DNA from: Dermatemys mawii
Lineage: Eukaryota; Chordata; Testudines; Dermatemydidae
DNA: 64,000 nucleotides
NCBI GenBank assembly: GCA_007922305.1
Contig: ML677343.1
Coordinates: 35,718,774 to 35,782,773, forward strand
Direction of reading: 5' to 3'
Below the pieces are notes generated by a model. The model worked only from the letters and a program-made list of their open reading frames with translations. It made no database searches and had not been told where the DNA came from. Position numbers and translations under genes: made by a program. Below are positions 3,303 through 19,900 of this stretch, in pieces (positions within the stretch are counted from its first letter, which is position 1; every line of letters starts with the position of its first letter).

Positions 3303-3594
3303 TACACCACTCTCCACATCTTTTAGGGCACAGGATGCACCTGCTCAGGGGATGACTATGGGGTTACAGTCGTCTGTTATCTAAAGGACCCTGCCTTGTT
3401 TATTGTAGAAGTTGGAAGATGTGTAATGAATGAGGCAAGGAATTGCAAGAGGAGAGATGATGGTTTGGTGGTTAAGAAAAGTGAGTGTTTCCCTGGAGAA
3501 CTGGATTCTAATTCTCTGTACAGAGAGAGTCACTGTACTATTAGTAGAAGTGACAAAGAGTCCTGTGGCACCTTAAAGACTAACTAAAGTATTA

Positions 3595-3632
3595 GAGAAT
3601 AAGCTTTCGTGGGCTAATACCCACTTCGTCGG
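3595..3632 (-). ncRNA. Hammerhead-ribozyme-like motif of a Penelope-like element (left arm)
   Basis: On the minus strand the core reads CCGACGA, then a five-pair stem GTGGG/CCCAC, then GAAA and a short stem III. The canonical core is CTGANGA, so the second position is changed, and stem III has one mismatch. Cleavage activity is doubtful. Confidence 0.55.
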
Positions 3633-3796
3633 ATGCATGCAGGGGAAGTATCCAGGGACAGGGATAAATAGGTAGGCAAGAACCAGGTTGGAGATAACAG
3701 GGTTAGTCCAATGAGGCTGAACCAGCTTGTTATCTCTAATCAGGGAGGGTGAGGTATTCCTCTAGCAACTGAACTGGAGTCTTCCACTGCATGCAT

Positions 3797-3834
3797 CCTA
3801 CGAAGTGGGTATTAGCCCACGAAAGCTTATGCTC
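3797..3834 (+). ncRNA. Hammerhead-ribozyme-like motif of a Penelope-like element (right arm)
   Basis: The core reads CCTACGA, followed by the GTGGG/CCCAC stem, GAAA and a perfect AGC/GCT stem III with loop TTAT ending at C3834. The invariant G of CTGANGA is replaced by T, so this copy is probably inactive although its stems are intact. Confidence 0.55.
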
Positions 3835-3941
3835 TAATACTTTAGTTAGTCTTTAAGGTACCACAGGACTCTTTGTTACTTCTGCAATTCCAGACTAACA
3901 CGGCTACCCCTCTGATCCTCTGATTCTTGTACTATTAGTAG

Positions 3942-4802: not shown

Positions 4803-5413
4803 TGCCAAGAAGGCTGACGGCATTTGGGTTGTATAAGTAGGGGCACTGCCAGCAGATCAAGTGATGTGATTGTTCCCCTCTATTTGACATTGGCGAGGCC
4901 TCATCTGGAGTACTGTGTCCAGTTTTGGGCCCCACACTACAAGAAGGATGTGGACAAATTGGAAAGAGTCCAGCAGAGGGCAACAAAAATGATTAGGGAA
5001 CTGGAGCACATGACTTATGTGGAGAGGCTGAGGGAACTGGGATTTAGTCTGTAGAAGAGAAGAATGAGGGGGGGATTTGGTAGCTTCTTTCAGCTACCTG
5101 AAAGGGGGTTCCAAAGAGGATGGATCTGGACTGTTCTCAGTGGTACCAGATGACAGAACAAGGAGGAATGGTCTCAAGTTGCACTTGGGGCGGTTTAGGT
5201 TGGATCTTAAGAAAAACTTTTTCCCTAGGAGGGTGGTGAAGCACTGGAATGGGTTACTAGGGAGGTGGTAGAATCTCCTTCCTTAGAGGTTTTTAAGGTC
5301 AGGCTTGACAAAGCCCTGGCTGGGATGACTCATTTGTGGGTCGGTCCTGCTTTGAGCAGGGAGTAGAACTAGATGACCTCCTGAGGTCCCATCCAACCCT
5401 GATATTCTGTAAA
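4803..5413 (+). mobile_element. CR1 LINE, 5'-truncated 3' end
   Basis: Broken frames give the CR1 reverse transcriptase C-terminus ([18 protein letters not shown], then [30 protein letters not shown]). It ends with the CR1 3' tail (CTAGATGACCTCCTGAGGTC to GATATTCTGTAA). Stops and small indels show it is dead. Confidence 0.92.
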
Positions 5414-5659
5414 GTCTCACAACTTTGTGGGACCATAGATGGGGTGTGCCAGGAAGAGGGGGAAGTATAGCCAGAACCTAAGTAAGAGGTTCTGGATGGC
5501 TGGAAGAGGGACTGCAATCTGACATGCTCTATGTAGATGTATGTTAGGATTTCCCCCTCACCGTAGGAAGGACAGGTGTTGGGGAAATTCCTGAACTGCT
5601 CCAGGTACAGGCCCATGTTCATGACTCTGTGAAGGAGCCTTCAACAAACATCCCAAGCG

Positions 5660-13904: not shown

Positions 13905-16900
13905 GTAAGGACAGAAGGAAAAGGCAAATCCAATTCCAGAAGTGGATGGAGGACAGTGCTTTCTTGCTGTGTGCAAATGGATGTGAATGAAAGTCGGGCT
14001 GATTTGAAGTAGGCAGGTATAGCCTTATGATTAATTTTGGGTGCAAGATGTACTAGGCACTAATAACGGGTTTCTTCTTTGGTGACTATTTAGAGATTAA
14101 TTAAGATGATGACTGGGGAGACATACATAGAGACTTTGAGTTTTATTTGTACAATGTTTAATATAAACAAAATCACAAAACTAGGAAACAAGGAAAAACT
14201 AATAGCTGAATCCGCATCATGTATACTCAGGAATCAGTAGGGCTGTGGATTTCCCTTAAAATGAGATTGTGTTAAGGTTTTCATCATCCTGCCCTCCCGG
14301 GGTCCTGCTGAGCGTCAAGTTTAATTCCCTTAATATGCACCTATTCCTAGTGCATGTGTATTTCTGAGACCATGTTTAATTGAGTCTTGGCTTCTTGTCC
14401 ATTCCTGCTAATCATTTTTGGGGTTCTGGCAATTGTCGTAAGCGTTTGTGCTTGTAGAAGGTTCTCTGTGCAATGCGGTTAGAGAAGTCCAATTAAATAA
14501 AGTGGGAGGAGTGAAAGCTATGTTGGAGGGTAGGGATAGGATACAGAGGGACCTAGACAAATTAGAGGATTGGGCCAAAAGAAACTTGATGAACAAGAAC
14601 AAGTGCAGAGTCCTGCACTTAGGATGGAAGAATCCATGCACTGCTACAGACTAGGGACCGAGTGACTAGGCAGCAGTTCTCCAGAAAAGAACTAGGGGTT
14701 ACAGTGGACGAGAAGCTGGACACGAGTCAACAGTGTGCCCTTGTTGCCAAGAAGGCAAACAGCATTTTGGGCTGTATAAGTAGGGGCATTGCTAGCAGAT
14801 CGAGGGACGTGATCATTCCCCTCTATTCAACATCGGTGAGGCCTCATTTGGAGTACTGTATCCAGTTTTGGGGCCCACACTACAAGAAGGATGTGGAAAA
14901 ATTGGAAAGAGTCCAGAGGAGGACAACAAAAATGATTAGGGGCCTGGAGCACATGACTTATGAGAGGCTGAGGGAACTGGGATTTAGTCTGCAGAAGAGA
15001 AGATTGAGGGGGGATTTGATAGCTGCTTTCAGCTACTTGAAAAGGGGTTCCAAAGAGGATGGATCTAGACTGTTCTCAGTGGTACCAGATGACAGAACAA
15101 GGAGTAACAGTCTCAAGTTGCAGTGGGGGAGGTTTAGGTTGGATATTAGGAAAAACTTTTTCACTAAGAGGGTGGTGAAGCACTGGAATGGGTTCCCGAG
15201 GGAGGTGGTACCTTATAGACAGATTTTTAGGGATCATGAGCTTTCGTGGGCTAAGACCCACTTCATCAGATGAATGTTGTGGAAATCTCCAGCGGCAGGT
15301 ATAAATAGCAGGCAAGAAAGCAAGGTAAATTCAATCGGGGGGGGGGACCCACTTCCAGCCGATGATCTGGAGGTGTGAACACCCAGAGAGGAGAAACTGC
15401 TTTTGTAATTGGTGAGTCATTCACAGTCAATATCGAGTCCAGTCCTGATGGTGTTGAATTTGCAGATGAACTGGAGCCCAGCAGTTTCTCTTTGAAGTCT
15501 GTTCTTGAAGTTTTTTTGCTGAAGGATGGCTGTTCTGTGGTCTGCTATTGTATGTCCAGGCAGGTTGAAGTGTTCTCCTATAGGCTTATCGCTTACCCCA
15601 TAACCTCAGTCGTGCAGAACGCAATGGCATTCACAGCCTTAGAAACAACCCTGACTTTACAATCAAAGAGGCTGATAAAGGAGGCGCTGTTGTCATCATG
15701 AGCAGGTCTGACTACCAAAAGGAGGCTGCCAGACAACTCTCCAATACCAAATTCTACGGGCCGCTTTCCTCAGATCCCACTGAGGAATACGCTAAGAAAC
15801 TGCGCCATCTGCTTAGGACACTCCCTACACAAGCACAGGAATAAATCAACAGACCCTTAGAGCCCCGACCCGGGTTTTTCTATCTACTACCCAAGATCCA
15901 CAAACCTGGAAATCCTGGACGCCCCATCATCTCGGGCATCGGCACTCTCACTGAGGACTATCTGGGTATGTGGACTCTCTACCCAGACCATACGCCACCA
16001 GCACTCCCAGCTATCTCCGTGACACCACCGACTTCCTGAGAAAACTACAATACATTGGTGATCTTCCAGAAAACACCATCCTAACCACCATGGATGTACA
16101 GGCACTTTACACAAACATCCCACACAAAGATGGAATACAAGCTGTCAGGAACAGTATTCCTGATGATGCCACAGCACAACTGGTTGCTGAGCTTTGTGAC
16201 TTTATCCTCTCGCACAGTTGTTTCAAATTTGGTGACAATGTATACCTCCAGACCAGTGGCACCGCTATGGGCACCCGCATGGCCCCACAATATGCCAACA
16301 TATTTATGACTGACCTGGAACAACGCTTCCTCAGGTCTCGCCCACTCACGCCCCTTCTCCACCTATGCTACATTAATGACATCTTCATCATCTGGACCCA
16401 TGGGAAAGAAACTCTGGAAGAATTCCACCACGATTTCAACAGCTTCCACCTTACCATCAACCTCAGCCTGGACCAGTCTACACCAGAGGTCCACTTCCTG
16501 GACACCACAGTACAAATAAGTAACGGTCACATAAACATCATCCTATACCGAAAACCTACCGACCGCTTTGCCTACCTTCATGACTCCAGTTTCCATCCTG
16601 GACACACTACACGCTCCATTGTCTACGGCCAAGCACTGAGGTACAACCACATTTGCTCCAACCCCTCAGACAGAGACCAATGCCTACAAGATCTTCACCA
16701 AGCATTTTTAAAACTGCAGTACCCGCATGAGGAGGTAAGGAAACAGATAAACAGAGCCAGACGTATACCCAGAAGCCTTCTGCTGCAAGACAAACCCAAG
16801 AAAGAAACCAACAGACCACCACTGGCCATCACCTACAGTCCTCAATTAAAACCTCTCCAACACATCATCAGTGATCTACAACCCGTCCTGGACAACGATC

Positions 16901-19900
16901 CCTCACTTTCACAGGCCTTGGGAGGCAGGCCAGTCCTCGCCCACAGACAACCTGCCAACCTCAAGCAGATTCTCACCAGCAACCACACACTGAACCATGG
17001 CAACTCTAACTCAGGAACCAATCCATGCAACAAACCTCGATGCCAACTCTGCCCATATATCTGCACCAGCAACACCATCACAGGACCTAACCGGATCAGC
17101 CACACCATCACTGGTTCATTCACCTGCACTTCTACCAATATAATATATGCCATCATGTGCCAGCAATGCCCCTCTGCTATGTACATCGGCCAAACTGGAC
17201 AATCCCTATGTAAAAGGATAAATGGACACAAATCAGATATTAGGAATGGCAACATACAAAAGCCTGTAGGAAAACACTTCATCCTGCCTGGACATACAAT
17301 CGCAGACCTCAAACCAGCCATGCTTCAGCTAAAAAACTTGAAGTTTTTTTTTCAAAGAGAAATTGCTGAGCTTCAGTTCATCTGCAAATCCGACACCATC
17401 AGGTCTGGACTCAATATTGACTGTGAATGGCTCGCCAATTACAAAAGCAGTTTCTCTTCTCTGGGTGTTCACACCTCCAGATCACCTGCTGGAAGCGGGC
17501 TTCACACACACACCCCCCCGATTGAATTTACCTTGCTTTCTTGCCTACTATTTATACCGGCCTCTGGAGATTTCCACAACATTCATCTGATGAAGTGGGT
17601 CTTAGCCCACGAAAGCTCATGATCCCTAAAATCTGTTAGTCTATAAGGTGCTACAAGACTCTTTGTCGCTTTTGCAAATCCAGACTAACACGGCTACCCC
17701 TCTGATACTAGGGAGGTGGTGGAATCTCCTTCCTTAGAAGTTTTTAAGGTCAGGCTTGACAAAGCCCTGACTGGGATGATTTAATTGGGGTTGGTCTTTC
17801 TTTGAGCAGGGGGTTGGACTATAATCCTATGATAGATAGACTATATATTCTATATAGGCAAATCTTCTGACCCAATATTGGGCCTAATGTGGCTTTATGT
17901 CAACTATTACTACTAGACCTCAAGCTGAATACTAGGCTTCAGACTCACTGCAAGGTCCATTTTTAAAAAATATTTGTGTTTTTATTATTCCTACTTGCAT
18001 CGTAGCTTTAGTTTAATTTGCACTAATTAAACAAGCATCTTAACTTTTTCCAAAATATATGTGATTATATACATAATCACCTGAGCTCAGGTCATGGGTT
18101 AACAATGGAGTTGTATATGGCAGATGGACCTAGTTCTGAGCATATAATGCTGTAATTTATGGACTGAAGCTGTTATGCTCAGACAGGAAACACTCATTGA
18201 TGTTTTGGCTTGGAGAGTTTGACTGGTAATTCCCCTAGAAGCACCTCCTCTATGAAAAGTTTTCTTTGAGTGAGTTAACTTCTGGGAACTTCTAGTTGGA
18301 CATGGAATATGTTTTGGTGTGAGAGATGTCTCTGTTTATAAATGCTGTATCTTTTTCCATATAAAGGGCTAAGTTTTACTCCCAGTATATACTATCTTAA
18401 CACACTATGCTTTAGAAAACTGGCATCCTAAATGATAGTATATTTGTTAGGCAATTTATTCAAATGTACAGTAGTCACCAAAAAAAGACCACAGACGAAA
18501 ACGGCCAGAGTTAAGGTCATGGAAATGTCTAATGTAAATATTCAGAAGTGTAAATTTTCTTGAGAATGAAGGTAACTTAGAGAGATTATACAGTGATCAT
18601 TTCTGTATCTTGACATCTATATTTTGTTAACTGAAATGCTCTTGGTATCATGACTTAGTAACTTTATACGTTAATGCTTTTTCATTGGAGATATCCTTTT
18701 TAAAAAAAATGAATTGCAAAGTATGCTAAGAGTATAAATAGACTTAAACTATAAAGTTTTATGTATAGTAAACTTGGACTTCAGTATATAAAGTGTGCCT
18801 TAGGTCATTATGAGCTGAAGTCTATTTTCAGTGCATAAAGTTTAGTGTGCACAAACTTTAAAAGTTTTTACTGGAGTAAAACTTAATCCATGAAAAGGTC
18901 ATGGATTCCCCATAGCTTTACAAGCCATAGAGTCCTTTTGGATTTAGACTCTCTTCACCGCCAGTGGGTTTTGCATTTCATCGTGTAAACCCGCCACTCC
19001 TTTTTGTGGACAAAGCTAAAACTCGAGTCTCTAATCCACACTTTTTTCAGTAGACCTAACCCGTGTTGTTCTTCTAAGATGCACAGGGAGAGGCATGGCA
19101 CTTTGGAGCACTTCTCCAATTCCTGGTAAAAGTTCCAATACTAGGGCCCTAGACTTCAATGTGTTTGGGAAAGTCATTGACAGATGGGAGGAAAGACTGC
19201 GTGTCCTTTGCATCACCAAGTATTTTTGATAAAGTATTACTTGCATAAAGTATACGCTGAAGTGTTTTCTTCACAGTAAGTTATCGGTGTGTAAAACTGT
19301 GTACTGAATTACTTATTGTATAATAACTTCATGAGCTGAAGGATGCCTGATCCTTCCAATTGCCTCAATCCAAAAGTAAATCTGTGTTCCTTATAGCTCT
19401 GTCCTAGACTCTCAGCATGGATTAACGCTCAAGGTAGCATAGCTCACCCAGCATAGGTTGGGTCTGCTGACCATCTGAGTTCCTGAGATCCCAGATATGG
19501 TTTTATCTAGAGAGAGGTGTGGGAGCATGAAGGAGGAGAGAACTGTGGCATGGCAGCTGATAAAATTTTATGTGAGAGTTTTGCAAGGACCAAACTTCAC
19601 AAAGAAACTTTTCCTGCACAAATTGCTCACTTGGAATGCTTGAAAGACCGGGTCTTGGTGTTTTAAAAGTTTAATAGAAAGTTTTCCTGCTACAGTGTTG
19701 GATTCCCTTTGAGACCTTTTCCACTCAGCTTATCCAGAATACCTTGCTCACTTCTAGGAGAACATTTTATCCAGTTTTCTGGGATCCAAAAAACTCAGTT
19801 TGATTCCAGATTTAGTCACTCAGGTCAGGTTCCTTTATTTGTCGTACAAATGTAGGGGTGGGTACAGTATGTACCATACATCCAGAATTACACAGAAAAA

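Follow-up and report, generated by a model that had tools for sequence, protein, structure and literature searches.

A Penelope-like element with an inverted 5' arm in the turtle Dermatemys mawii, and its probable insertion by priming from both ends of one target cut

The window analyzed here is a stretch of 64,000 nucleotides from the turtle Dermatemys mawii (G000:C20:35718774-35782773, in a genome of 1.8 Gb). At positions 15210-17709 it contains a Penelope-like element (PLE) of 2500 bp, a dead, 5'-truncated copy that lies between two copies of AGGGAGGTGGT and in which the sense body is preceded by an antisense arm. The features of the element are the following.

15199-15209, no strand: left target site duplication AGGGAGGTGGT, from the exact repeat and uninterrupted copies of the host repeat.
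15210-15587, minus strand: antisense 5' arm, a copy of the element's 3' end (17260-17649), from alignment.
15234-15273, minus strand: minimal hammerhead-like motif in the antisense arm, from sequence reading and the arm alignment.
15588-17709, plus strand: sense body, 5'-truncated and with a broken coding region, from alignment and domain search.
16051-16467, plus strand: reverse transcriptase domain RVT_1 (Pfam, E 1.4e-09).
17140-17265, plus strand: GIY-YIG endonuclease match (Pfam, 19.7 bits, below the cut-off of 22.6).
17583-17622, plus strand: putative minimal type I hammerhead-like motif with stem I UCAU/AUGA, stem II GUGGG/CCCAC and no helix III, from the predicted fold and the published pattern (PMC7761336).
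17635-17689, plus strand: predicted stem GTTAGTCT/AGACTAAC around the no-tail start site, from fold prediction.
17674-17709, plus strand: "tail", present on the right arm and missing from the left.
17710-17720, no strand: right target site duplication AGGGAGGTGGT, an exact repeat of 11 bp.

The reverse transcriptase of the sense body scores 38.4 bits against a cut-off of 29.6, as expected of a PLE, and the sub-threshold GIY-YIG match shares the open stretch 15955-17622 with it. A sequence search of the PDB with 15955-17484 gave no match at E values up to 0.01. The catalytic motif of the reverse transcriptase reads YIND, the usual form being YIDD, and no single frame is open throughout the sense body; the copy is therefore broken and inactive.

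Both ends of the element are fixed by the 11-bp duplication and by copies of the host repeat that run uninterrupted elsewhere. The flanks rejoined without the element measure 141 bp and match the host repeat at 95-97% identity; among the best 40 of 3120 candidates, 36 matches were full length, 35 of these without a net gap. An earlier note on this DNA had claimed that the duplication sets both ends exactly and that the element is nested in a repeat, and both claims are borne out. By its sequence features the host repeat looks like CR1, and a Pfam search of the host sequence 14623-15201 returned no match.

The antisense arm is 378 nt long and agrees with the reverse complement of 17260-17649 at 343 of 377 ungapped columns (91%), with indels in addition. 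The first ~385 nt had been described as the reverse complement of the element's own 3' end; the arms do align, but the arm is slightly shorter and the 60 nt at the very end of the element are missing from it, so the two arms are not mirror images. Likewise, the antisense copy of the GIY-YIG region that had been attributed to the arm is limited to the last bases of the Pfam match and any part of the domain 3' of it. The inversion breakpoint near 15590, for which sharing with other copies had been considered, was sought with a 38-nt pattern across the junction (at most 3 mismatches), which matched its own locus and no other place in the genome. The junction thus looks private to this insertion and not inherited from a source copy. 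A short antisense fragment at 40946-40982 matches the PLE 3' end at 84%.

The arrangement recurs in the genome. Forty copies were mapped, the element and 39 other places from a genome search: 14, including 15210-17709, carry an antisense arm that extends to the 3' end region, 6 carry an inverted piece with an internal start, and 20 have no arm, a class that includes L012 and L032, which adjoin runs of N where the presence of an arm cannot be judged. The similarity searches scored the best 40 candidates (the best 11 in one search), and these frequencies are not genome-wide rates. The tallied copies cover the family of the element, the L054 subfamily and older relatives. Inner junctions vary among the two-armed copies, and no direct-orientation pseudo-long terminal repeat (pLTR) was noted in the 39 mapped loci with a reference lacking the full 5' end. 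The inverted 5' pieces of L039, L040, L043 and L045 begin at internal template positions, as in L1 twin priming. A group of long PLE copies in the genome, L054 among them, with 86% identity to the element and nearly equal scores suggests a younger subfamily. A second, separate two-armed copy with 92-94% identity to L054 lies in the window (3534-3941 with its flanks).

3548-3927, no strand: second two-armed copy, of a related subfamily, left arm without tail and right arm with tail.
3534-3547 and 3928-3941, no strand: 14-bp duplication TGTACTATTAGTAG flanking it, an exact repeat.

Insertions made of little beyond two short arms also occur (L055-L059, L011 and L051), and their existence is difficult to account for if only one target end is used. 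Target site duplications of 11-16 bp with at most one mismatch flank 15 of 16 two-armed copies, with 11 bp at the element; in the sixteenth, L014, a 12-bp duplication lies beyond an extra fragment. A further check gave 16 bp for L049. Of 14 two-armed copies, 11 have exact flank matches of 10 bp or more, whereas the control values as printed went no higher than 9; this control applies to the exact search only, and the one-mismatch search had none of its own. Exact duplications measure 12 bp in L055, L056 and L051, 14 bp in L058, L011 and the window copy 3548-3927, 10 bp in L028 and 8 bp in L057. For L059, a 7-bp match was found by script and one of 12 bp with one mismatch by eye.

Sense 3' ends fall mostly at ~17662-17678 ("no tail", ~17673) or at ~17704-17710 ("tail", ~17709). 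These ends lie about 36 nt apart across copies, in keeping with the optional tail of ~30-40 nt of PLEs, and the outer ends of the antisense arms lie at the same two sites or short of them. Among the 20 armless copies, 12 end at the no-tail site, 7 at the tail site and 1 elsewhere. Since armless copies use either site, an independent choice would make about half of the pairs discordant. Instead, exactly one arm carries the tail in all 36 two-armed copies tallied. The partner arm stops at the no-tail site in 29 of the 36 and short of it in 7, and wherever both outer ends lie at the two sites (29 of 29 copies) there is one of each.

Twenty-one of these 29 copies were read as sequence (L010, L020, L022, L024, L027, L030, L034, L036, L044, L048, L053, the window copy 3548-3927, older copies inside L011, L028, L047 and L051, and L055-L059), and 8 are known from search coordinates only (C30:39067708, C7:40990813, C9:11276062, C20:34135606, C42:43631126, C1:28915116, C30:36085950 and C44:14548477). 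The 7 copies with one arm short of the no-tail site and the other tailed are 15210-17709, L016, L025, L049, L050, C38:4391284 and C31:18808993; L049 passes the scripted no-tail threshold at 17657, yet was tallied as ending short. No pair with two tails or with none was met in the searches made, and a final scan, which covered the window and all loci L010-L059 except L054, added only the old copies in L047 and L051 and no pair that breaks the rule. The tally leaves out L014, C2:9003003 (the same pieces as C3:9008661 and a probable duplicate), C41:6681390 (which looks like a later nested insertion with a 9-bp duplication) and a piece in L022 cut by the locus end. L014 is complex, with a tailed left arm and, on the right, a no-tail end followed by an extra antisense element fragment of ~55 bp (5413-5490) and then the duplication. 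At G000:C41:6679521-6681700, coordinates alone give what looks like a PLE 3' end of ~90 bp, antisense inside another PLE, with a 9-bp duplication.

The two arms of a copy also share rare variants. Sixteen rare variants are common to both arms over 14 copies; when arms were re-paired in 5000 permutations, the mean was 0.69 and the highest value 6. At least one such variant occurs in 7 of 14 pairs, and the numbers are highest in L034 and L036. Shared and unshared variants are interspersed in several copies, less so in L036, where they look partly tract-like. Rare shared variants were used as the test because distance ranks alone do not show a common source; partner-distance ranks (rank 1 in 7 of 14) were rejected as proof, as a star phylogeny ranks young copies first.

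The insertion 15210-17709 is very probably the product of target-primed reverse transcription that began at the two ends of a single staggered cut. In this reading the endonuclease would leave two 3' overhangs of about 11-16 nt. Each would pair over a few bases with the 3' part of the element RNA and then be extended, one from the tail site (~17709) and the other at or just inside the no-tail site (~17673). The two cDNAs would both be antisense to the RNA and attached at opposite sides of the break, and joining of their free ends with filling of the gap would leave an antisense 5' arm and a sense body within one target duplication. Observed in the copies are their structure and duplications, their recurrence, the private junction, the two start sites, the single tail and the shared rare variants; the polarity of the overhangs, the priming by a few bases, the order of events and the end joining at the inner junction are inferred. 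The two start sites would belong to a single RNA, or to a pair of RNAs of one source locus, presumably held by an asymmetric protein dimer. Two-ended priming explains the orientation of the arm, the target duplication, the shared start sites and the one-tail exclusivity.

The earlier note had proposed that the inverted arm came from template switching during integration. An origin during integration is retained, because the arm recurs, lies inside single target duplications and has ends that obey the start-site rule. Template switching is not retained as the main mechanism, because priming from both target ends explains orientation, duplication and ends. The additional pieces, antisense or sense, within L030, L034 and L049 do resemble template jumps.

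Several observations weigh against this reading. Every count comes from one genome, in which 20 of the 40 mapped copies have no arm and 6 have an inverted piece with an internal start. The left arm of the element begins at 17649, 24 nt inside the no-tail site, and the 8 pairs known from coordinates were judged single insertions solely because their pieces are close together and suitably oriented. In L047 the old copy has no flanking duplication of at least 6 bp that could be found. L051 is a locus cut so that the main copy is without its 3' end; it also contains a small, old copy with two arms, whose alignments end at 17651 and 17689, short of both its ends. By alignments alone that copy would be tail-less, and the tail on its right arm was read by eye from the letters up to the 12-bp duplication. 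Seven of the 14 copies lack any rare variant common to both arms, and gene conversion between arms could be an alternative source of the sharing. The arms of 15210-17709 share none of their derived variants (13 and 19) and differ by 8.7%, more than the left arm differs from any of the 39 other copies; this copy offers no support for one RNA template and is uninformative on that point, because its arms share no derived variant and lie farthest apart. Seven of the 19 variants are one clustered change at 17344-17350 in the right arm, where seven adjacent substitutions give a T run inside a small inverted repeat (CTTGAA..TTCAAAG), which looks like a single templated or slippage event.

It is quite possible that two RNA molecules were used, one per target end, with an asymmetric enzyme imposing the different start sites. 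This variant of two-ended priming accounts equally for one tail per pair; it agrees with the lack of any variant common to the arms of 15210-17709 and with the dimer predicted for the Anolis protein (PMC11167929). The rare variants shared in 7 of 14 copies would, however, require one source locus or a cis preference.

Fold-back self-priming, in which a cDNA (or an antisense RNA template) loops back on itself and is copied into a head-to-head inverted repeat with a palindromic junction, has been proposed for rotifer Penelope (PMC3846280). The inner arm ends of three tiny copies (L055, L056 and L057), which are separated by no more than about 10 nt of template, would suit it. Fold-back should, however, give equal outer ends, tail included, and these are seen in 0 of the 36 tallied copies. 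In addition, 95 to about 1870 nt of template separate the inner ends in 15 longer copies (a set without L014 and L049), 1672 nt in 15210-17709, so their junctions are not palindromes, and fold-back is disfavoured as very unlikely.

Twin priming of L1 uses the second target end as a primer, which it has in common with the two-ended reading of PLEs. In its classical form the neighbouring part of the RNA already in use serves the second primer as template, giving an inversion without duplication, and L1 inversions, unlike PLE arms, do not duplicate the 3' end. The internally starting pieces of L039, L040, L043 and L045 fit this form, but the arm of the element duplicates 17260-17649, the arms of this and the other tallied copies start at or near the 3' start sites, and outer ends cluster at two sites; we consider it improbable to a high degree as the origin of the arm. 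A later rearrangement, two independent insertions or an assembly artefact would fit the single genome match of the junction and is extremely improbable, as one duplication encloses both arms and the anatomy is found again on many contigs, where the junctions differ and the one-tail rule is kept.

The hammerhead-like core noted before (CTGATGA, GTGGG/CCCAC and GAAA) was confirmed with the same letters in both arms. Among the mapped copies, 37 of 40 have CTGATGA in the sense end and 12 of 14 have it in the arm; L054, of the other subfamily, has CCGACGA at this position, so the putative motif is not fixed across subfamilies. The predicted fold shows stems I and II, with an energy z-score of only -1.79. 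Core and stem II without helix III resemble the minimal type I motifs of PLEs (PMC7761336), in agreement with the earlier statement that such motifs occur in these elements. The motif matches no curated hammerhead model: an Rfam search of the whole window at the gathering score gave no match at all, and a search of the element at E values up to 5 gave two matches, neither of them a hammerhead. Applied to this sequence, the minimal type I pattern that lacks helix III (PMC7761336) puts the predicted cleavage after C17618; C17624 had been proposed earlier. Hammerhead cleavage was dispensable for insertion in vitro (PMC11167929). A recurring edge of short copies at ~618-620 of L054 was considered as run-off at the ribozyme site; this was dropped, as the motif lies at about 576-608 and the edge in a subfamily-variable stretch.

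Inverted 5' pLTRs, one of them with a tail, belong to the published anatomy of PLEs (PMC3846280). Rotifer Pen2a and others in that account are similar in their head-to-head inverted terminal piece, short target duplication and optional tail of ~31 bp on one inverted pLTR, as well as in an inverted piece 37 bp shorter than full pLTRs. Unlike in Pen2a, the arm of 15210-17709 continues into 3' coding sequence and the body is 5'-truncated; unlike in the rotifer account, one-tail exclusivity was counted in this genome, and the self-priming explanation does not fit. The Poseidon PLE of Anolis carolinensis (PAc) resembles the element in its reverse transcriptase, its GIY-YIG domain (a match below the cut-off in the element) and its hammerhead motif, and its reverse transcription starts internally at two adjacent sites, which define the tail (PMC11167929). 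Unlike the inactive copy studied here, PAc yields a purified protein for which cleavage and extension of both target strands were observed in vitro and the strands behaved apparently alike, a result that matches the two-ended reading. A term search of PMC11167929 gave no mention of inverted arms, inverse copies or twin priming, and "inverted" appears only for a blocked 3' base. No statement of a strict one-tail rule or of a common-source test of arms was found in the Penelope literature searched, from which most subscription papers were missing.

The integration of PLEs and their frequent inverted ends have been described as unsettled (PMC3846280, PMC11167929). The record of dozens of natural insertions, with its one-tail rule and the variants shared between arms, ties the two-strand extension in vitro and the two start sites to real insertions. 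It also argues against fold-back self-priming and leads to a testable prediction of one RNA with two starts. It is tentatively suggested that PLE integration might be obligately two-ended at its start, with two adjacent start sites on one RNA, each used once, one per 3' end of the cut. If so, the tail would not be optional and would mark which target end used the outer site, armless copies would result from loss or abortion of the second cDNA, and the purpose of the two-site 3' structure would be the loading of two reverse transcriptases onto one RNA.

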